In this document: positions 1 to 7,189 of the stretch, one piece after another
How the letters are laid out: the number at the start of each line of letters is the position of its first letter
How positions within the stretch are numbered: position 1 is the first letter of the stretch
Assembly: GCA_008501785.1 (NCBI GenBank)
Contig: QQUD01000862.1
Span: 1 to 7,189, forward strand
Reading direction: 5' to 3'
Length of the DNA: 7,189 nt
Origin: Chloroflexota bacterium
GTDB lineage: Bacteria > Chloroflexota > Anaerolineae > Promineifilales > Promineifilaceae
Position numbers and translations under genes: made by a program
The notes under the pieces: generated by a model
The model's database searches: none
Seen by the model: the letters and a program-made list of their open reading frames with translations, nothing else
What the model was told of the DNA's origin: nothing

Positions 1-496
1 TTTGCCAAAATACGGCCGTAACCTCATCTCCCAAACGAATACCATCACGCAGGAGTTGGCAGCGCGGAAAGAATTGAAACGCTTCACCTTCCTCGGCTCT
101 GGACCTCAATTCGGAATAGCCAGTGAAGGCATGCTCAAAATGACCGAAATGTCGTTAACAGTCGCCCATGCTTTCCACTTTATGGAATATCGGCATGGAC
201 CGATGTCAATGGCTAACGAAGAAGCAGCCATCATTGGTTTGTTATCACCCACCGCCGCTATCCACGAAAAACAAGTGCTGGATGAAATGGCCGCGAATGG
301 AGCTACGACTCTGAGCCTTTCTCCTGCAGAAGGTGACATTAACCTTCCCGCTAATTTGCCAACCTGGGCTTACCCAGTGCTGTACCTACCCCCACTACAG
401 CTGCTTGCTTACCATCGATCCATCTCCAAAGGACTTGATCCAGATAATCCACGTAATTTAACGGCCGTTGTCTATCTTGATAAGGCCGCATTTTAA
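1..496 (+). CDS. SIS-domain sugar-phosphate isomerase/deaminase, C-terminal part (5' end outside window)
   Basis: The visible 164 residues are the C-terminal half of a two-SIS-domain protein of the GlmS/AgaS/FrlB kind, which isomerises or deaminates phosphosugars in the cytoplasm. Seen in the fragment: the SIS core FLGSGPQFGIASEGMLKMTE at about residues 30-49, matching the GRG..A.EGALKLKE block of GlmS; MEYRHGP at 61-67, matching GELKHGP; and a C-terminal GLDPDNPRNL at 144-153, matching the PRNLAKSVTVE tail of GlmS. The Lys after PRNLA, which is catalytic in glucosamine synthase, is replaced here (PRNLTAVVYL). This argues against a true GlmS and for a catabolic SIS enzyme. The reading frame is open to the window edge, so the start lies upstream, and the in-frame TTG at base 2 should not be taken as a start. 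The stop is 61 bases before the binding-protein gene. The exact substrate cannot be set; an AgaS-like role on an amino-sugar phosphate is inferred from context. Confidence 0.88.
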   Translation, partial: LPKYGRNLISQTNTITQELAARKELKRFTFLGSGPQFGIASEGMLKMTEMSLTVAHAFHFMEYRHGPMSMANEEAAIIGLLSPTAAIHEKQVLDEMAANGATTLSLSPAEGDINLPANLPTWAYPVLYLPPLQLLAYHRSISKGLDPDNPRNLTAVVYLDKAAF

Positions 497-556
497 TAAT
501 TTTGCTGCGAAAGCTTGGCAAAGCCAGCCTTTCCATTCTAGTGAGGAGAAAATCAA

Positions 557-1906
557 ATGAAGAAGATTTGGGTAGTTACGCTTATCGTTTTGTTGTTAGC
601 TGCTTGTGGTGGTGGAACAGAAACAGCCGAACCTGCTGATAGCAGCAGTTCAGACACTGCCAGCGGCGCTGCGAGCAGTGAAGCTGCCAACAGCGACGAA
701 GCGGTCACCATTCGCGTTTGGACACATCAAAATGGCGCATTCAACGATGGCTATCAAGCATTGGCCGACGCGTATACCGCAGATCATCCGAATGTAACCA
801 TCGAATTTGAAACCTTCGACTACGACACCTATATTCAAACCTTGCAGACCGCACTCCCTGCCGGAACAGAATCAGACATTCTGCAAATGTTCGGCACCTG
901 GACTTGCAGTTATGCCGATAATCTGGCACCTGTTCCCGAAAGCGCAGTCAGCATGGCCGATGCTGAGGCCGCCTTCTTCCCCGCCCCCCTTACAGGCTAT
1001 ATTTGCGATGATGCACTACTGGGCCTGCCACAAGAGTTTAATATTGAATATGGTGCGACATTGGTTAATACGGCCGTTGCTGAAGAAGCTGGTGTTGGCG
1101 ACGTTTCTGGTGGTTGGGACAACTGGGATGCCTTCATTGAAGATGCCAAAGCGATGACCGGCACCCAAGATGGCATCATCACCCGTGCAGGCTTCAACTA
1201 CACCTCTGGGGATGCAATTGGCTTCACCATGCTCTCCCTCATCAAACAAGCTGGCGGCGATTACATGAATGCTGACAAAACGGCTTTCACCCTCAACACG
1301 CCCGAAGGCAAACAAGCCCTTGAATTGATGAAGCGGATGGCTGACGAAGGTATCATTGACCCTGTTTTGTTCAATGACGAGTCCAACTGGGTTGGCGATT
1401 GTCACTTTGAAGAAGCATGTGCTATGGGCATCGTTGGTCCTTGGGCGATTGCTGACTACTCAGGCGACTTCCCCGAAGTGGCAGAACACACCATTTATGC
1501 TCCATTGCCCAGTTTAGGCGCAGAACCGAATTTCGTTGCCGACTCTGGCTGGGGTCTGACTGTTTCTAACAACAGCGAAGTGCAGGATGCGGCATGGGAC
1601 TTCATCAAGTTCGTGACCATGAACGAAGAAAACGCGCTCGGTTGGAACATCGGCTCTGGCACACTGCCAGCTCTGAAAGCAAATACTGAAGGAGCCGCTC
1701 GCGATACATTGGTGGGTGAATTCTCCTACTTTGAGCCGTTCTTAGAGGTACTGCCCTACGGCGAATACATGGGGTCACTGCCTGACCGTGATTTGTTCTG
1801 GTACGACATTGCTTATCCGCATGTATTGAACATGTTGCAAGATATCGAAACGATTGATGAAGCATTGGCGGCGATGGAACAGGAAGCAAACGAGAGCTTT
1901 GAATAA
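557..1906 (+). CDS. ABC transporter sugar-binding lipoprotein (family 1 extracellular solute-binding protein)
   Basis: This is the substrate-binding component of the CUT1 importer encoded by the next two genes, anchored outside the membrane by lipid. The 449-residue length is usual for the family. Residues 1-17 form a lipoprotein signal peptide (MKK, a hydrophobic run, then LLAAC with Cys17). An Ala/Ser/Asp/Glu-rich tether follows to about residue 49, and the mature domain begins VTIRVWTHQNG, a typical first strand of family 1 binding proteins. GIVGPWAIADYS near residues 290-301 matches the conserved late G.W motif of the family. Four cysteines occur as two spaced pairs (117/150 and 282/288) and could form extracytoplasmic disulphides. 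GAGGAG at 543-548 lies 8 bases before the ATG, fixing the start. A strong hairpin follows the stop, which may protect this message so that it exceeds the permeases. The sugar bound cannot be read from the sequence. Confidence 0.95.
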   Translation: MKKIWVVTLIVLLLAACGGGTETAEPADSSSSDTASGAASSEAANSDEAVTIRVWTHQNGAFNDGYQALADAYTADHPNVTIEFETFDYDTYIQTLQTALPAGTESDILQMFGTWTCSYADNLAPVPESAVSMADAEAAFFPAPLTGYICDDALLGLPQEFNIEYGATLVNTAVAEEAGVGDVSGGWDNWDAFIEDAKAMTGTQDGIITRAGFNYTSGDAIGFTMLSLIKQAGGDYMNADKTAFTLNTPEGKQALELMKRMADEGIIDPVLFNDESNWVGDCHFEEACAMGIVGPWAIADYSGDFPEVAEHTIYAPLPSLGAEPNFVADSGWGLTVSNNSEVQDAAWDFIKFVTMNEENALGWNIGSGTLPALKANTEGAARDTLVGEFSYFEPFLEVLPYGEYMGSLPDRDLFWYDIAYPHVLNMLQDIETIDEALAAMEQEANESFE

Positions 1907-1911
1907 AAGTT

Positions 1912-1948
1912 TCAGGTGACAGTCACTTGGAAAGTGACTGTCACCTGA
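1912..1948. repeat. Perfect 17-bp stem hairpin between binding-protein and permease genes
   Basis: The left arm, 1912-1928 (TCAGGTGACAGTCACTT), is exactly complementary to 1932-1948, with a 3-base GGA loop. Each arm is itself near-palindromic (GTGAC-A-GTCAC and GTGAC-T-GTCAC). There is no T-run after the stem, so it is not a classic intrinsic terminator. It starts 5 bases after the upstream stop and ends 4 bases before the GGAG ribosome site of the permease gene. By analogy with the REP hairpins between malE and malF in E. coli, it could stabilise the binding-protein message against 3' exonucleases and lower permease expression; this role is inferred. The same outer sequence pattern recurs in hairpins at 5018-5051 and 5112-5143. 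Confidence 0.9.
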
Positions 1949-1964
1949 TAGTGGAGACAAAGAC

Positions 1965-2978
1965 ATGCAGGTTTCAGCTTCTAATACTGAGATTAAAAAA
2001 CGGCCGTTTTGGAAATTCACAGGCGGTCGTGAAGGAGCCAAACGCACTTTTGTCGCTAGCGCAGTCACGCCGATGGTATTGTACATGGGCTTCTGGGCTT
2101 TGTTTCCAATTTTGTGGGCGGCGATTTTGGCCTTTTTTGAGTACAGTGCCCGCCGGGACGGGGGAACGATTTTGGGATTGGGTGGAGAGAATCCATTTGT
2201 TGGCCTACAGCACTTTAGAAACATGCTCAACTTTAGCGAAGATGCACCGTTGGAAGTGCGCCAGTTCCATACCAGCGTTAAAACCACACTCATGTTCGCC
2301 TTTTTAGTCGTCCCGCTCAACCTCGCCATTACTCTGCCGCTGGCAGCGATGATCGAATCTATCGGGAATCGGCTGAAGCTAGCTTTCCGCACCATTTTCT
2401 TCTTGCCTATTGTCACTGCATCGGTAGGGGTGGCTCTGATGTGGGGGTACATTTTGCATCCCCAACGTGGATTTCTCAATGGCGCGATTGGCTTCTTTGC
2501 TGGCAAATTGACTGTTATCAACTGGACAGGAGACCCTAATTTGACAGTTGGTCCTGTGCCGGTAGCGTTGTTGGCGGTGATCATTGCCTATCTGTGGCAG
2601 GACATTGGCTATAATCTCATCATTTTTATTGCCGCCTTGCAAGCCATTCCCAATAGTGTGCGAGAAGCCGCAATTATTGATGGGGCCAATGGTCGTGATT
2701 TGTTTTTCAAAATTACCCTTCCCTTGCTCAAACCAACTATTTTCCTTGCTTCCGTACTAACGATGATTTCGGCTTTTCAAGTATTCGATATTATTCAGGT
2801 GATGACCGATGGTGGCCCCAATGAACAAACGCGGGTGATGGTGATTGATATTTACAGCAATGCGTTTCGATTTCAGCGTATGGGATGGGCGGCGGCCGTT
2901 TCCACCGTGCTGTTCCTCTTGGTTTTAGCTATTTCATTGATTCAAAATCGCCTGCTGAGAAGCGAGTGGGAATACTGA
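1965..2978 (+). CDS. CUT1 ABC sugar transporter permease, MalF/UgpA-like
   Basis: This is the first membrane subunit of the importer. It is 337 residues long with about six hydrophobic segments, near 31-58, 106-130, 141-164, 197-228, 258-280 and 307-328. The cytoplasmic EAA loop that docks the ATPase is clear at 234-257 (EAAIIDGANGRDLFFKITLP, then LLKP). The segment around 213-229 and the GGP at 283-285 (DGGPNEQTR) are also typical of MalF-like subunits. GGAG at 1953-1956 sits 8 bases before the ATG. The cytoplasmic N-terminal tail contains KRPF, encoded by one copy of the AACGGCCGTT palindrome (1997-2010). With its partner at 3027 it forms the transmembrane channel. No ATP-binding subunit is present in the window, so a shared MsmX/UgpC-type ATPase encoded elsewhere is likely. 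Confidence 0.95.
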   Translation: MQVSASNTEIKKRPFWKFTGGREGAKRTFVASAVTPMVLYMGFWALFPILWAAILAFFEYSARRDGGTILGLGGENPFVGLQHFRNMLNFSEDAPLEVRQFHTSVKTTLMFAFLVVPLNLAITLPLAAMIESIGNRLKLAFRTIFFLPIVTASVGVALMWGYILHPQRGFLNGAIGFFAGKLTVINWTGDPNLTVGPVPVALLAVIIAYLWQDIGYNLIIFIAALQAIPNSVREAAIIDGANGRDLFFKITLPLLKPTIFLASVLTMISAFQVFDIIQVMTDGGPNEQTRVMVIDIYSNAFRFQRMGWAAAVSTVLFLLVLAISLIQNRLLRSEWEY

Positions 2979-2979
2979 G

Positions 2980-3019
2980 TAATTGTCAATTGTCAATGCT
3001 TAATTGCCAATTGTTAATG
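2980..3019 (+). repeat. Two 19-bp direct repeats, period 21, before the second permease gene
   Basis: TAATTGTCAATTGTCAATG at 2980-2998 is repeated at 3001-3019 with 17 of 19 bases identical. It is AT-rich and contains CAATTG palindromes. It fills almost the whole gap between the two permease genes, beginning one base after the upstream stop codon. The last base of the second copy is the first base of the GAGGG ribosome-binding sequence at 3019-3023, so the repeat could affect translation initiation. Similar AATTGTCAATTG strings occur as intergenic repeats in other bacteria, as I recall, so it may be a dispersed element. Confidence 0.75.
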
Positions 3020-3023
3020 AGGG
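3019..3023 (+). promoter_or_regulatory. Ribosome-binding site with very short spacing
   Basis: GAGGG lies only 3 bases before the ATG at 3027, which is tighter than usual. No better in-frame start is close by, and the N-terminal residues from this ATG look like a normal MalG-type tail. The start is therefore kept, with possible weak or coupled initiation. Confidence 0.5.
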
Positions 3024-3026
3024 ATT

Positions 3027-3887
3027 ATGTCAATTACGACTTATCAGCCAAAACGACGCACATTTCAATTTAATTTGGGGAAAACGGCCGTTTACATCAT
3101 CCTCATCCTCGGCAGTTTTATTGCTATGTTGCCATTCATCTGGATGATTTTAGCCGCTTTCAAAACAGGCCAGGAACTGCGCCAAATTCCACCCACTTTC
3201 TTGCCACAAGAATGGACGCTAGACAATTTTCGCACCATATTCAACGATGAAGATTTGCCCTTGCTCACCTTTTATGGCAACTCGGCATTCGTGGCTCTCA
3301 TGAATACCACGCTGGTTTTATTTACCAGTTCGTTATTTGGCTTCATCTTTGCCAAGTACGATTTTAGAGGTAAAAAAACCATCTTTTGGTTCATTCTTGC
3401 CACCATGATGATTCCCTTCCAAGTGATGATGATTCCCAGCTACCTAATTTTAGTGAAGTTAGGTTTACTCAATAGTTTATGGGGGCTGGTTGTCGGTTCG
3501 GCCGTCGATGCGTTTGGCATTTTCCTCATCACCCAATTTGCCAAATCGATTCCCAATGAACTGCTGGATGCAGCACGAGTGGATGGCGCATCGGAATGGC
3601 GCATTTATTGGAAGATTGCCCTGCCCCAACTTGGCCCAGCGATGGCAACGCTAGGTATGTTGACCTTCATGTTTAACTGGAATTCGTATTTGTGGCCGCT
3701 GATTGTGTTAACAGAGCAGCAAAAGCGCACGTTGCCTATCATTTTGAATTGGTACTCCACCCAGCACTCCACCCAAATCCACCTGACAATGGCTGCTTCT
3801 GTACTCGTTGTGGTTCCCATTTTGATTGTCTTTTTGGCGATGCAAAAGTGGATTGTGAAGGGGATTTCATTGACAGGGCTTAAATAG
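3027..3887 (+). CDS. CUT1 ABC sugar transporter permease, MalG/UgpE-like
   Basis: This is the second membrane subunit of the importer, 286 residues long, usual for MalG-like proteins. Hydrophobic segments lie near 21-45, 85-109, 117-141, 150-170, 205-226 and 255-273. The EAA loop is at 180-200 (LDAARVDGASEWRIYWKIALP, shown here as its positions and key DAARVDGA core). MMIPFQVMMIPSY at 127-139 and the C-terminal QKWIVKGISLTGLK, equivalent to the RYFVRGLTAGAVK tail of MalG, are hallmark features. The gene follows the MalF-like gene after 48 bases, clearly in the same operon. An AAACGGCCGTTT palindrome (3082-3093) encodes T-A-V just before the first membrane segment. The transported sugar is unknown; the neighbouring glycosidases suggest oligosaccharides. 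Confidence 0.95.
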   Translation: MSITTYQPKRRTFQFNLGKTAVYIILILGSFIAMLPFIWMILAAFKTGQELRQIPPTFLPQEWTLDNFRTIFNDEDLPLLTFYGNSAFVALMNTTLVLFTSSLFGFIFAKYDFRGKKTIFWFILATMMIPFQVMMIPSYLILVKLGLLNSLWGLVVGSAVDAFGIFLITQFAKSIPNELLDAARVDGASEWRIYWKIALPQLGPAMATLGMLTFMFNWNSYLWPLIVLTEQQKRTLPIILNWYSTQHSTQIHLTMAASVLVVVPILIVFLAMQKWIVKGISLTGLK

Positions 3888-3904
3888 GCTTGCAGAGCAA
3901 GATT

Positions 3905-4948
3905 ATGAAACGAATCCATTCTGTTTTTATGCTGTTGGTTGCTGTGTTGGTTGCATGTGGTGGAGGGGGAGAAACGGCCGTTTCGACTTCGCTCAGTGCA
4001 GGTGTTTCCACACCTACTGCCATTCCAACCCCAACCACAAAACCTGCGCCAACCCCTATCATATTTTCAAAAACAGATGAAGATTGGGCAACAGTAGAAA
4101 ATTTCACCTACCAATTACAACGACCCAACGCTCAGCGCATCGGCAAAACCGCCTTTGACCTCGTCGTCGTCAGTATCTCTGCCGCCGGAAGCTCACCTGA
4201 AACCATCCCTGCGCTCAAGCAAAGCGAAGGCGGAGACAAGCTTATCTTGTGCTACATGAGCATCGGTGAGGCTGAAGATTATCGCTGGTATTGGCAGTCT
4301 GAGTGGAAAGAAAATCCGCCCGCGTGGTTGGACGAACCGAATCCTGTTTGGGCTGGTGATTATAAAGTGCGCTATTGGATGCCAGAATGGCAGGAAATCA
4401 TCTATGGCACGCCCGAAAGTTATCTTGATCAAATAATTGCCCTTGGTTTTGACGGCGTCTATATGGACATTGTGGACGGATACCAGTTTTATGAAGAACG
4501 CGATGGCCGTACGACTGCCGCTCGTGAAATGGCCGATTTTGTTATCGCTATTGCCGAATATGCGCGCGAACGACATCCCGGCTTCGGCATCTTTCCACAA
4601 AATGCTGAGGAGTTGGGTATTCTCTTCCCTGATTATTTAGAAACTGTCACCGGTATGGGCGTGGAAGATTTGTATTATGGCTACCCTCGCGATCATGAGC
4701 CCAGCCCGGCCGACTGGACAGCCGCACGAGAAGCAACACTCGACCAATGGATAGCTGCCGACAAACTCGTTTTGACAATTGATTACAGTGCAAAAGCAGA
4801 CCAAATTGCTGATGCATACCAACGCGCATTAGTTCGTGGATATGTACCGTATGTGACGGACCGCTCATTGGGTCGTCTGCGTGTCAATCCCGGATTTGAA
4901 CCAGAAAAAACGCATGCCGAATATGATTTTTCAGCAGTAAACGAATAA
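3905..4948 (+). CDS. Surface lipoprotein with TM1410/GH114-like glycoside hydrolase domain
   Basis: This is a predicted extracytoplasmic, lipid-anchored glycosidase of 347 residues. Residues 1-18 are a lipoprotein signal (MKRIHSVFMLLVAVLVAC, Cys18). A Gly/Thr/Pro-rich tether follows to about residue 55, and the rest is one (beta/alpha)8-type domain. Family marks of the MJ1477/TM1410 and GH114 group are YMSIGEAEDYRWYW at 117-130, WAGDYKVRYWMPEWQ at about 149-163, GFDGVYMDIVDGY at 181-193 and FPQNAEEL at 230-237. Acidic residues Asp183, Asp188, Asp191 and Glu235 are the likely active-site candidates. The GH114 founder is an endo-alpha-1,4-polygalactosaminidase, and the PelA hydrolase domain is related; activity on galactosamine polymers is inferred by homology only. 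The ATG at 3905 is preferred to an in-frame TTG at 3890, because it gives a normal lysine-arginine N-terminus. No strong ribosome site is visible. The gene starts 17 bases after the permease stop, so it is very probably cotranscribed with the importer. Confidence 0.85.
   Translation: MKRIHSVFMLLVAVLVACGGGGETAVSTSLSAGVSTPTAIPTPTTKPAPTPIIFSKTDEDWATVENFTYQLQRPNAQRIGKTAFDLVVVSISAAGSSPETIPALKQSEGGDKLILCYMSIGEAEDYRWYWQSEWKENPPAWLDEPNPVWAGDYKVRYWMPEWQEIIYGTPESYLDQIIALGFDGVYMDIVDGYQFYEERDGRTTAAREMADFVIAIAEYARERHPGFGIFPQNAEELGILFPDYLETVTGMGVEDLYYGYPRDHEPSPADWTAAREATLDQWIAADKLVLTIDYSAKADQIADAYQRALVRGYVPYVTDRSLGRLRVNPGFEPEKTHAEYDFSAVNE
3971..4015 (+). repeat. Stacked repeat fragments inside the lipoprotein tether
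   Basis: This stretch follows the lipobox codons and encodes part of the flexible tether. It holds a 14-bp palindrome GAAACGGCCGTTTC (3971-3984). It then has TTTCGACTTCGCTCAGTG (3981-3998), a string I recognise as resembling short dispersed repeats seen in many bacterial genomes, and next a small inverted repeat AGGTGT-TTCC-ACACCT (4000-4015). Reading through it gives ETAVSTSLSAGVSTP, which is compatible with a linker. I infer that repeat sequence was accommodated in a tolerant part of the protein. Confidence 0.5.
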
Positions 4949-5017
4949 ATGATTACCATCAGAGCCTTCTACTTTATATATTACGCTGCTGCTGCTTTTC
5001 GTTTACCCATCCAGCAA

Positions 5018-5051
5018 AGGTGCATTGCACTTTCCTAAGTGCGCTGCACCT
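5018..5051. repeat. Imperfect 15-bp stem hairpin
   Basis: AGGTGCATTGCACTT (5018-5032) pairs with AAGTGCGCTGCACCT (5037-5051) around a TCCT loop, with one mismatch and one G-T wobble. The outer bases (AGGTG...CACTT / AAGTG...CACCT) match those of the 1912-1948 hairpin, while the five central bases differ. No T-run follows, so a terminator is unlikely. Confidence 0.8.
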
Positions 5052-5117
5052 GGCTCACACCAAGTGAACGAATCTGGTTCGTATCAAGTGCAATGAAACT
5101 GGTTCGTATCAAGTGCA
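5050..5117 (+). repeat. Three tandem degenerate repeat units of 24-25 bases
   Basis: The second and third units share the identical 19-mer CTGGTTCGTATCAAGTGCA, at 5074-5092 and 5099-5117 (period 25). The first unit, from 5050, is a diverged copy (CTGGCTCACACCAAGTG) with a 24-base period. The last unit runs into the hairpin at 5112-5143. Between units there is an inverted repeat ACGAA-N5-TTCGT at 5068-5082, which has the form of a dimeric regulator site, although no regulator is known here. The copies are contiguous with no unique spacers. Confidence 0.8.
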
Positions 5118-5143
5118 TTGCACCGAAGAAGGTGCAATGCACT
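5112..5143. repeat. Perfect 13-bp stem hairpin upstream of GH4 gene
   Basis: AGTGCATTGCACC (5112-5124) is the exact reverse complement of GGTGCAATGCACT (5131-5143), with loop GAAGAA. It ends 17 bases before the AAGGAG ribosome site and 29 bases before the GH4 start codon, so in a transcript from upstream it would sit in the 5' leader. Its arms follow the same AGTG-N5-CACC pattern as the other two hairpins. Confidence 0.85.
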
Positions 5144-5160
5144 GGTCAAAATTTTCTAAA

Positions 5161-5166
5161 AAGGAG
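5161..5166 (+). promoter_or_regulatory. Ribosome-binding site fixing the GH4 start
   Basis: AAGGAG lies 6 bases before the ATG at 5173. The reading frame is open further upstream to a GTG at 5113, but that start would translate the hairpin repeat into a non-homologous 20-residue tail. The ATG at 5173 begins directly with the Rossmann strand LKVTIIGAGS. Confidence 0.85.
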
Positions 5167-5172
5167 CATTCA

Positions 5173-6486
5173 ATGCTAAAAGTAACCATTATCGGCGCAG
5201 GCAGCGCTGTTTTTGCCACTGAAGTTATGAGCGATATTTTGTGTACACCTGGATTAGACTCGGGCACCTTTGCCCTGGTAGACATCCATGCAGGGCGGTT
5301 AGAACTGGCGCACAAAATGGCTGAGTTTTTAGTGGCTCAAAGCGGCCGTAATTGGACCATCGAAGCCAGTACAGACCTCACCAAAGTTTTACCGGGCAGC
5401 GATTACATCATCAACACCATTGAGGTGGCTGGTCGCGAAAATGTGCGCCACGATTATGACATTCCCATGAAATATGGCGTCGATCAATGTATCGGCGACA
5501 CCATCGGCCCAGGTGGCTTGTTCAAAGCATTGCGCACCTTACCCGCCTGGCTCAACATTTTGGCAGATATCGAGCGATTGGCCCCTGATGCCCTGGTGAT
5601 GAACTATACAAATCCGATGTCGCTGACCGTGCTAACCGGTGTGCGCGGCAGTAAGCTGCCCGTTGTGGGTTTATGCCACTCCATTCAACACACTAGCTAC
5701 CAGTTAGCCGAATACCTGGACATTCCCTGGGGTGAGATTGATTGGCGGGCGGCAGGCATTAACCATTTAGCCTGGTTTGTGAAGCTGGAACGTAATGGTG
5801 AAGATTTATATCCGCATTTGCGGCAGCGCATCACGAACCAACCTGATATTTATGAAAAAGACCCGGTGCGTTTTGAGATGATGAAACATTTGGGCGCATT
5901 TGTGACGGAATCGAGCGGACACACATCTGAATATACCGGCTACTTCCGCAAGCGGCCTGACCTTATCAAAAAATATATGCGCTCTGAATATCGTGGTGAA
6001 AGTGGCTTTTATGCTAACAACTGGCCGACCTGGCTGGAAGAAGCTGCACAAGAATTGCGCGATTATCTCTCAGGTAAAGAAAAATTCGAGCTAGAACGTG
6101 GTCCTGAATTTGCATCGTACATTATTGAAGGGAAGGAAACGGGCAAGCCTTCTGTCATTTATGGCAATGTGCTCAATACCGGACTGATTGACAATTTGCC
6201 ACAAGATGGCGTGGTGGAAGTGGCGTGTCTCGTCGATAAAAAAGGGGTACAGCCAACTCACTTTGGCAAGCTGCCGACACATTTGGCTGCTTTAGATGCA
6301 CAGCATATGGCGTTTCATGATTTGGTGGCAACGGCCGTTTTAGACCAAAACCGAGAAGCAGCCGTGCAGGCATTGATGGTGGACCCATTGACAGCGGCTG
6401 TTTGCTCTCTGGATGAAATTCGCACGATGTTTGATGAGATGGCAGAGGTGCAACGTGATTACCTACCCGATTTCCTCCAAAAATAA
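5173..6486 (+). CDS. Glycoside hydrolase family 4 (alpha-galactosidase/alpha-glucosidase group, NAD- and metal-dependent)
   Basis: This is a cytoplasmic glycosidase of 437 residues, near the MelA/AglA length. GH4 enzymes cleave glycosides by an oxidation-elimination route that needs NAD and a divalent metal, usually manganese. Seen here: a Rossmann NAD site VTIIGAGSAVF at 4-14; GDTIGPGGLFKALRTLP at 108-124; NYTNPM at 144-149; the diagnostic GLCHSIQ at 166-172; AGINHLAWF at 194-202; and FVTESSGHTSEY at 243-254. Cys168 and His198 are the expected metal ligands. The CHS-type motif places it with alpha-galactosidases and alpha-glucosidases, rather than the phospho-glycosidase (CN.P) or glucuronidase (CHG) groups. 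No signal peptide is present, which fits hydrolysis of imported oligosaccharides. The precise substrate is not decided by the sequence. A AACGGCCGTT palindrome (6330-6339) encodes A-T-A-V in the C-terminal part. The 3' end overlaps the likely start of the next gene by 32 bases. Confidence 0.93.
   Translation: MLKVTIIGAGSAVFATEVMSDILCTPGLDSGTFALVDIHAGRLELAHKMAEFLVAQSGRNWTIEASTDLTKVLPGSDYIINTIEVAGRENVRHDYDIPMKYGVDQCIGDTIGPGGLFKALRTLPAWLNILADIERLAPDALVMNYTNPMSLTVLTGVRGSKLPVVGLCHSIQHTSYQLAEYLDIPWGEIDWRAAGINHLAWFVKLERNGEDLYPHLRQRITNQPDIYEKDPVRFEMMKHLGAFVTESSGHTSEYTGYFRKRPDLIKKYMRSEYRGESGFYANNWPTWLEEAAQELRDYLSGKEKFELERGPEFASYIIEGKETGKPSVIYGNVLNTGLIDNLPQDGVVEVACLVDKKGVQPTHFGKLPTHLAALDAQHMAFHDLVATAVLDQNREAAVQALMVDPLTAAVCSLDEIRTMFDEMAEVQRDYLPDFLQK
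6444..6448 (+). promoter_or_regulatory. Candidate ribosome-binding site for the overlapping downstream gene
   Basis: AGAGG inside the end of the GH4 gene lies 6 bases before an in-frame GTG at 6455. It supports that start over an upstream ATG (6434) and a downstream TTG (6494), both of which lack a comparable site. Confidence 0.45.
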
Positions 6487-7189
6487 AGCTGCTTTGGATG
6501 CGAAAACGGCCGTTTTTACATGGCCCGATTTCATAGTCGTATTGGGTGTGGCTGGGATGGCATTGTTCATTTATGGTCGCACCCTCACCCCTGGCTTGCT
6601 GCCGGGAGATGGCGGCGAATTCCAAACGTTGACCTACTTGTGGGGTCACAGCCACCCAACTGGCTATCCCGTTTACCTTACGCTGACTCGCCTATTTACA
6701 CTGCTGCCGACAGGTGGGTTGGCCTACCGGGTGAATCTGTTTTCGGCGGTGATAGGGGCGTTGGTGGTGGCGGGTGTGTATATAAACGGCCGTTTCCTCA
6801 CCCAACGCCGCATCATTCCCATTGTGGGGGCGTTGATAGTTGCCCTTTCTCCCACATTTTGGTCACAGGCGGTAATTGCCGAAGTGTACACAGCCGGTGC
6901 TGCGCTAATCGTTTGGATCATCGCGGCGCTGCTTTGGTGGCGCACAACTGGCAGCCAACGGGTGCTTTTTGTGGCTGGTTTGTTAGGCGGATTGAGCTTA
7001 GGCGTGCATATGAGTGTGATGCTGATTGCGCCAGCAATGGGGATATTTCTCCTGCTGCCCAACCGAAAGCCTAAAGAAGGTGAACAAGAAATAAAATCGC
7101 TGTTCTCCAATCTGAAAGCACCACTTCTAGGAGCAGCGATTGGGCTGGTCATCACCATTTTGCTGTTCGTCTTGATGGATTGGAACAAT
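6455..7189 (+). CDS. DUF2723 family GT-C-like membrane protein, N-terminal part (3' end outside window)
   Basis: This frame stays open to the window edge, giving at least 245 residues. From the GTG at 6455 the protein reads as a short hydrophilic tail, then a membrane helix (IVVLGVAGMALFIYG, about 27-41), then the loop LTPGLLPGDGGEFQTLTYLW with Asp52 and Glu55, and GHSHPTGYPVYL at 64-75. RVNLFSAVIGALVVAGVY and LSPTFWSQAVIAEVYTAGAA follow. These are hallmarks of DUF2723, related to protein O-mannosyltransferases and other GT-C enzymes that use lipid-linked sugars; the acidic pair in the first loop corresponds to the GT-C catalytic loop. Several more hydrophobic helices follow. The start is uncertain: GTG 6455 has AGAGG upstream and overlaps GH4 by 32 bases; ATG 6434 or TTG 6494 are alternatives. 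The overlap implies cotranscription with GH4, but the role looks anabolic and may be unrelated to sugar uptake. It holds two AACGGCCGTT palindromes (6503-6516 and 6784-6795). Confidence 0.85.
   Translation, partial: MITYPISSKNKAALDAKTAVFTWPDFIVVLGVAGMALFIYGRTLTPGLLPGDGGEFQTLTYLWGHSHPTGYPVYLTLTRLFTLLPTGGLAYRVNLFSAVIGALVVAGVYINGRFLTQRRIIPIVGALIVALSPTFWSQAVIAEVYTAGAALIVWIIAALLWWRTTGSQRVLFVAGLLGGLSLGVHMSVMLIAPAMGIFLLLPNRKPKEGEQEIKSLFSNLKAPLLGAAIGLVITILLFVLMDWNN

Follow-up and report, generated by a model that had tools for sequence, protein, structure and literature searches.

The 7189-bp contig QQUD01000862.1 from a Chloroflexota bacterium, analysed at its full length and called the window below, contains seven exact copies of the palindrome AACGGCCGTT. 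Comparison with related genomes indicated that the repeated unit is the hexamer CGGCCG with a lineage-specific outer pair, rather than a fixed decamer. The palindrome is restricted to one clade of Chloroflexota and is shared by some phages. It may be maintained by a host factor that acts in trans, recognises the palindrome and benefits DNA carrying it. We favour this reading tentatively, at somewhat less than even probability.

The first-pass annotation of the window had reported seven copies and likened them to HIP1, the highly iterated palindrome (HIP) of cyanobacteria. Our recount found all seven, and none of 200 dinucleotide shuffles reached this number (mean 0.02, maximum 1). CGGCCG occurs 13 times in total, nine of them as ACGGCCGT. 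The likeness to a lineage-specific iterated palindrome is strongly supported by the results below. The decamer as the unit did not hold; it is replaced by CGGCCG with dialects.

Abundance and flank dialects in one clade

The window encodes a GH4 protein that is 92% identical to its equivalent in locus L001, from a metagenome-assembled genome (MAG) of an uncultured Anaerolineae (genome G001). It is 83% identical to that in L002, from the MAG of Ardenticatenaceae bacterium CFX1 (G002). The same protein search found 19 further, more distant loci. In G001 (7.3 Mb), the nearest relative counted, AACGGCCGTT occurs 4045 times and the reversed word 12 times. The numbers in G002 (7.5 Mb) are 669 and 34, and seven other genomes examined have 3-8 copies. 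ACGGCCGT occurs 11512 times in G001, compared to 99 for the reversed control. It reaches at least 1000 copies in 31 of 98 genomes, which are G001 and relatives, with a maximum of 15176 in 7.5 Mb. Counts of CGGCCG widen the carrier set. The hexamer and its reverse are found 16258 and 869 times in G001, 21019 and 132 times in G028, 13814 and 51 times in G025, and 22240 and 1218 times in G053. The enriched genomes of the clade contain about 1-5 sites per kb.

The excess over Markov models that had been predicted from the window is present in G001. In 420 kb of this genome, 209 copies of AACGGCCGTT were seen, compared to 2.6, 11 and 67 expected at orders 3, 4 and 5. For ACGGCCGT, 614 were seen and 22.8, 68 and 309 expected; the high-order models contain parts of the word, that is, of the signal itself, and order 5 contains most of it.

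A sample of 400 Chloroflexota, drawn evenly and including G001, was counted for ACGGCCGT. Only G001 reaches 1000 copies. The runners-up are G015 (646) and G035 (549), of the same clade, followed by G167 (471) and G098 (408). A quick, one-gene tree of rpoB, with 51 rows from 60 loci (eight had no rpoB open reading frame (ORF), and G014 was too short), contains a 42-row clade with a Shimodaira-Hasegawa-like approximate likelihood ratio support of 100. Inside it, a group with a support of 82 unites the 23 ACGGCCGT rows; it leaves out, among others, G010, G013, G027, G032, G040, G046, G050 and G053. G018 and G041 are located in a three-row group with the flankless G028. Within the 42-row clade, G020/G004 show no enrichment of CGGCCG, nor, by counts, does G022. 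The same applies to G032, which is outside the tree.

A single contig may mislead on the site content of its genome. Contig C1 of G010 (L024) has no ACGGCCGT and 11 CGGCCG in 16.8 kb; the whole genome has 11907 ACGGCCGT. This contig may be foreign DNA or may have been binned wrongly.

The dialects are ACGGCCGT, with the A..T outer pair of the window's lineage, TCGGCCGA, GCGGCCGC, and a form with no flank. In sampled DNA, the base next to the core is A in a fraction of 0.82 in G001, T in 0.85 in G018 and 0.79 in G041, and G in 0.95 in G025. The flanks are nearly flat in G016, G028 and G046/G050/G053, leaving a plain hexamer. In G001, the profile around the core is symmetric and extends to a 16-bp palindrome. 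The class of 28 ACGGCCGT genomes used below is our own typing from genome counts of ACGGCCGT and CGGCCG and from flank data, and G040, G043 and G048 are weakly typed for dialect, with few sampled sites.

G022 iterates another palindrome, TGCCGGCA. It occurs 3665 times genome-wide, as read from the reversed column of the ACGGCCGT count. In the sampled loci (L143, L034, L097 and L349-L353) it is found 20 times, compared to 0.5 expected, or about 0.8 without masked bases (28.9 kb). A different hexamer, GCCGGC, shows strong depletion in several carriers, among them G001, G025 and G028, with 45 copies versus 330 expected at order 3 in the 420 kb of G001 and 51 copies in 8 Mb of G025. The depletion is not seen in the carriers G002 and G016.

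Action at the DNA level, conservation and phages

All seven decamers are located in ORFs, as had been noted, and occupy three codon phases: five read T-A-V, one R-P and one N-G-R. The 13 CGGCCG sites are likewise all within ORFs and in three phases. In the G001 sample, where ORFs for the phase and peptide tests were defined by a simple longest-ORF rule, CGGCCG sites number 113, 476 and 198 by codon phase, 59 are non-coding and two are at edges. The T-A-V phase thus holds 476 of 787 coding sites (60%), as a protein or codon-usage artefact would predict. However, the enrichment is not confined to this phase. Compared to 60 synonymous shuffles of 293 ORFs, ACGGCCGT is enriched 5.7-fold, 14.6-fold and 46.7-fold in the three phases, and the phases other than T-A-V have the higher enrichment. 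The 59 non-coding sites show the same extended palindrome, GGAAACGGCCGTTTCC. Enrichment in every codon phase and in non-coding DNA agrees with the earlier proposal of action at the DNA level.

Three dialects each leave their own tripeptide excess. TAV is found 319 times in G001 (82.4 expected) and 169 times in the pool of the same dialect (40.5 expected). SAE is found 83 times in TCGGCCGA genomes (21.3 expected), and AAA 112 times in G025 (50.6 expected). Elsewhere, TAV is seen 3-15 times versus 8-18 expected in other dialects, and 19 times versus 20.1 in unenriched genomes. In bacterial sets with other dialects or none, the three tripeptides are at 0.35-1.4 of expectation. In G001, the synonymous shuffles refute a codon or protein cause, and the tripeptides following the dialect also speak against it. 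That a DNA-level force multiplies a tripeptide by two to four in the proteins sampled matters for inferences of selection and phylogeny from these sequences.

Conservation between relatives is strong in the ACGGCCGT class and weaker in some other dialects. The comparisons that follow are not independent events, since every pair contributes a count per direction and some genomes appear more than once. ACGGCCGT is intact in the partner at 112 of 123 sites in pairs with 85-92% identity (47% for other 8-mers), at 110 of 120 in pairs with 81-84% identity (24%) and at 94 of 148 in pairs with 73-82% identity (13%). When ACGGCCGT genomes are compared to G020/G004, two of 25 sites are intact (other 8-mers 7%), and compared to G015/G052, 10 of 30 (7%). 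Outside this class, G016-G036 retains 14 of 21 CGGCCG, versus 16% for all 6-mers. Only two of 393 aligned ACGGCCGT comparisons, from three sets of pairs, are gapped. Sites are therefore gained and lost through substitution, not insertion. Spread by insertion of mobile copies was rejected on the basis of the near-absence of gapped comparisons and of the alignments of the window to L001 and L002.

The palindrome is also found in phage DNA. When viral contigs were scanned for a 14-base form of the motif, 94 stretches were found, several of which share one contig. The first viral counts covered 80 of them, and a count with 200 bp around the 14-mer masked covered all 94. After masking, 36 stretches have at least five further ACGGCCGT at more than 10 times the expectation (523 versus 6.0). 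L308, which contains genes for the large and small terminase subunits and the portal, has 42 ACGGCCGT in 13.8 kb, and 14 of these are inside the minor head, portal and terminase genes. The density is 3.7 per kb in L238 and 3.0 per kb in L235, compared to 2.9 in the densest sampled 13.5-kb host window. In the proteins of six phage loci, TAV is found 74 times (18.0 expected). A search by terminase alone found 20 contigs. The motif is found in two of them, the query contig and L331 (eight in 4.3 kb), and the other 18 have 0 or 1. L308 also contains two methyltransferase-like genes (93-998 and 9695-10948), which match PF02086 and PF01555.

Candidate enzymes and explanations

A search for the suggested link to a methyltransferase did not reveal one in the three families covered. 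PF00145, PF02086 and PF01555 were searched in the 98 genomes with E values up to 1e-10, 1e-6 and 1e-8, thresholds that weaker matches would escape, and have matches in 31, 59 and 78 genomes, respectively. None of the families is found in every carrier: among the 28 ACGGCCGT genomes, the numbers are 14, 25 and 23. Cytosine methyltransferase families are found in 24 of the 28, and neither of the two was found by this search in G001, G014, G040 and G051. Two of the six plain-hexamer genomes, G016 and G050, have no match to any of the three. The lack of a common methylase is suggestive, as gaps in MAGs are able to hide genes.

Individual enzymes were considered as well. A structure search of the D12 enzymes of G001 and G002 found E. 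coli Dam and DpnM, respectively, as the nearest, and both were rejected as methylases of the motif. Thirty D12 proteins from as many loci form two groups of 24 and six, which hold the Dam-like and the DpnM-like enzymes. Of the 25 ACGGCCGT genomes that have a D12 match, 16 are represented in this comparison and nine are not. Both groups probably methylate GATC. A 13-member group of methylases with an SPPY motif was rejected as the cause on the basis of its neighbour, at the G012 locus only, a BstYI-like nuclease (L128, 1378-3015). Relatives of this methylase, with 63-98% identity, are found in 13 genomes, including G069, which does not have the palindrome.

G028 encodes a HaeIII-like C5 methylase adjoining a HaeIII-family nuclease (L044, 453-2667). 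This is a local HaeIII-type restriction-modification pair, and the methylase was rejected as a general cause. In this genome, GGCC outside CGGCCG is at 0.27-0.41 of expectation, but CGGCCG is enriched 15.9-fold and accounts for 332 of 425 sampled GGCC. Whatever maintains the palindrome thus seems to be stronger in this genome than the avoidance of restriction.

Additional searches addressed DNA modification, repair and uptake. DndE is found in only three of the 98 genomes (G002, G012 and G026), and a target of Dnd phosphorothioation was rejected on this count. MutL is found in 89 of 98 genomes, MutS_I in 53 of 59 and ComEC in 56 of 59, and none of them tracks the motif. MutL is also present in G004, G020, G022 and G032, which are not enriched in CGGCCG. 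MutS_I was not found in the carriers G001, G017, G034 and G037, where MutL is present; for this reason the gap in G017/G034/G037 is not counted against mismatch repair.

Under the reading we tentatively favour, a factor made in trans by the host would recognise the palindrome on DNA living in the cell and reward the DNA that carries it. For example, a nuclease, repair or recombination system could read the palindrome as a mark, or a dense DNA-binding protein could bind it. The flank dialects would reflect outer contacts of the factor, and an encounter with this factor would also explain why phages carry a host dialect. If the factor is lost, perhaps in G020/G004, sites would behave as ordinary sequence. 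If its specificity changes, which may apply to G018/G041, G025 and perhaps G022, the genome would follow.

Several points weigh against a host factor of this kind. The searches for the methyltransferase families, DndE, MutS_I, MutL and ComEC did not find a trans-acting factor, in MAGs that may be incomplete. Selection on about 10,000 small-effect sites is hard to picture, and a biased repair process would more easily explain the turnover of dialects. Retention of CGGCCG is 10 of 27 in G046-G050, versus 28% for all 6-mers, and two of eight in G018-G041, versus 14%; the unenriched pair G020-G004 keeps eight of 21, versus 17%. Low GGCC outside the core is found not only in G028 but also in G041 (0.29-0.62) and G018 (0.46-1.08). 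After masking, 56 of the 94 viral stretches have 0 or 1 further ACGGCCGT, and the density in these stretches is biased upward because they were picked by a 14-mer of the motif.

The best placed of the alternatives, though an unlikely one, is a ratchet of methylation-directed repair. A methyltransferase would mark CGGCCG or GGCC, and mismatch repair would fix mutations that create or complete a site. Such a process was proposed and supported for cyanobacterial HIPs (Elhai, 2015; PMC4390886). The plain hexamer with flat flanks resembles an enzyme site, and the abundance of MutL, MutS_I and cytosine methyltransferase families is consistent with this explanation. However, the two D12 enzymes in the structure search are Dam- and DpnM-like, the SPPY enzyme of G012 adjoins a BstYI-like nuclease, and the repair genes do not track the site. 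We rank the host factor higher because no enzyme is found in all carriers and because the A/T flanks differ from the G/C flanks of the GmeC model for HIP1.

HIP1 (GCGATCGC) and the alternate HIPs of cyanobacteria are also short, GC-rich palindromes with about 500-2500 copies per Mb, a core with an outer pair, and lineage alternates (PMC4390886). HIP1 is said to form in place by mutation, and its scarcity was used as a marker of foreign genes in Synechococcus elongatus (PMC3025956). The palindrome described here shows the octamer excess (11512 versus 99 in G001), the spread over coding and non-coding DNA and the in-place substitution of HIPs in the broad sense. It is not HIP1 proper, as it is neither GCGATCGC nor cyanobacterial; the four nearest named relatives are Anaerolineae, Ardenticatenaceae and Chloroflexi MAGs. 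Unlike HIP1, it has CGGCCG as the core and three flank pairs plus a flankless form, and it is present in phage contigs, with no shared methyltransferase found in the families searched. It works like HIP1 but is not HIP1. Dense GGCC-centred sites are also known in Synechocystis, where M.Ssp6803II methylates GGCC and is linked to repair and replication (PMC6560206). GGCC is the target of an enzyme there, whereas here the searches found no enzyme of this kind common to all carriers.

Next in standing, and also unlikely in our view, is a self mark that is coded in the sequence and free of modification. A host system would spare or favour DNA in its own dialect, and phages would have copied the dialect at or above the density of the host. 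The dialects would then be lineage passwords. Their price, extrapolated from sampled DNA, would be that each proteome contains forced TAV, SAE or AAA tripeptides in the thousands.

We consider it improbable that the palindrome serves an abundant nucleoid protein that binds every few hundred bases and organises the chromosome. The extended 16-bp profile in G001 would suit such a protein. So would the nearly random spacing in this genome, where two sites seldom lie within 20 bp of each other (nine pairs seen versus 34 expected). Phages, however, need no host chromosome architecture. The host factor is ranked higher because the plain-hexamer genomes have almost no flank information, which is unusual for a binding protein that lacks the strictness of an enzyme.

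More doubtful still is uptake-sequence drive, in which palindrome-bearing DNA would be favoured by the competence machinery and the motif would be enriched as the DNA taken up recombines. The DNA uptake sequences of Neisseriaceae and Pasteurellaceae are dispersed in many copies and form lineage dialects of a constant core, and the flanks observed here resemble such dialects. ComEC, although common, does not discriminate because relatives without the site have it too. Uptake sequences are defined as non-palindromic, whereas the motif here has a symmetric profile, is denser and is present in phages. Dense phage genomes are not expected from uptake drive; this density and the palindromic form are the reasons for ranking the host factor above it. 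Chi is likewise an over-represented short word, read by a nuclease/recombinase, but it is asymmetric and orientation-biased. A perfect palindrome cannot be orientation-biased.

Finally, a restriction target deserves as little credence as the protein or codon-usage artefact, next to none, as hosts and phages would be expected to avoid such a site and both are enriched in it.

Among the matches listed in a search of open-licence literature (titles and starts of abstracts, with subscription papers outside the scope), none reports the motif in Chloroflexota. The clade described here provides a second, independent family of iterated palindromes in another phylum, with a constant core, switchable flanks and apparent losses. 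To our knowledge, the function of HIP1 itself is still unsettled. Carriers in which no cytosine methyltransferase of the families searched was found, one carrier with a GGCC restriction system, phages and apparent losses are all available, and therefore the competing ideas can be tested against each other. In addition, phages and contigs could be assigned to carrier hosts with the help of the motif.

Sites and other features of the window

The ORFs of the window match the SIS domain, solute-binding protein, permease (two ORFs), GH114, GH4 and TMEM260-like families. Four decamers had been placed one or two bases off in the first-pass annotation, at 1997, 3082, 3971 and 6503; the copies are real and start at 1999, 3083, 3973 and 6505. 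The 13 sites and their state in L001 and L002 are as follows.

12..19: ACGGCCGT octamer, YGR phase; aligned to neither L001 nor L002
460..469: AACGGCCGTT, SIS-domain ORF (LTAVV); full decamer kept in L001, ACGGCCGT kept in L002
1070..1077: ACGGCCGT octamer, solute-binding protein gene (NTAVA); not a site in L001 or L002
1999..2008: AACGGCCGTT, N-terminus of the first permease (KRPF phase); no site in L001, no alignment to L002
2893..2898: CGGCCG only; kept in both L001 and L002
3083..3092: AACGGCCGTT, N-terminus of the second permease (GKTAVY); aligned to neither L001 nor L002
3499..3504: CGGCCG only; no site in either L001 or L002
3973..3982: AACGGCCGTT, GH114 ORF, N-terminus (GETAVS); aligned to neither L001 nor L002
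4707..4712: CGGCCG only; aligned to neither L001 nor L002
5343..5348: CGGCCG only; kept in L001, aligned place in L002 not a site, with CGGCCG inside ACGGCCGT four bases further
6330..6339: AACGGCCGTT, GH4 gene (VATAVL); full decamer kept in L001, ACGGCCGT kept in L002
6505..6514: AACGGCCGTT, TMEM260-like ORF, N-terminus (AKTAVF); aligned to neither L001 nor L002
6785..6794: AACGGCCGTT, TMEM260-like ORF (INGRF phase); aligned to neither L001 nor L002

The core is thus kept in both relatives at 462, 2893 and 6332, and in L001 only at 5343. Six of the 13 sites are unaligned to L001 and seven to L002.

Two further features were noted by eye. The gap between the solute-binding protein and permease genes contains an inverted repeat at 1914-1946, AGGTGACAGTCAC...GTGACTGTCACCT, which looks like a terminator. 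In the gap ahead of the GH4 gene, GTGCAATGCAC-like and CTGGTTCGTATCAAGTGCA units are repeated at 5018-5145.

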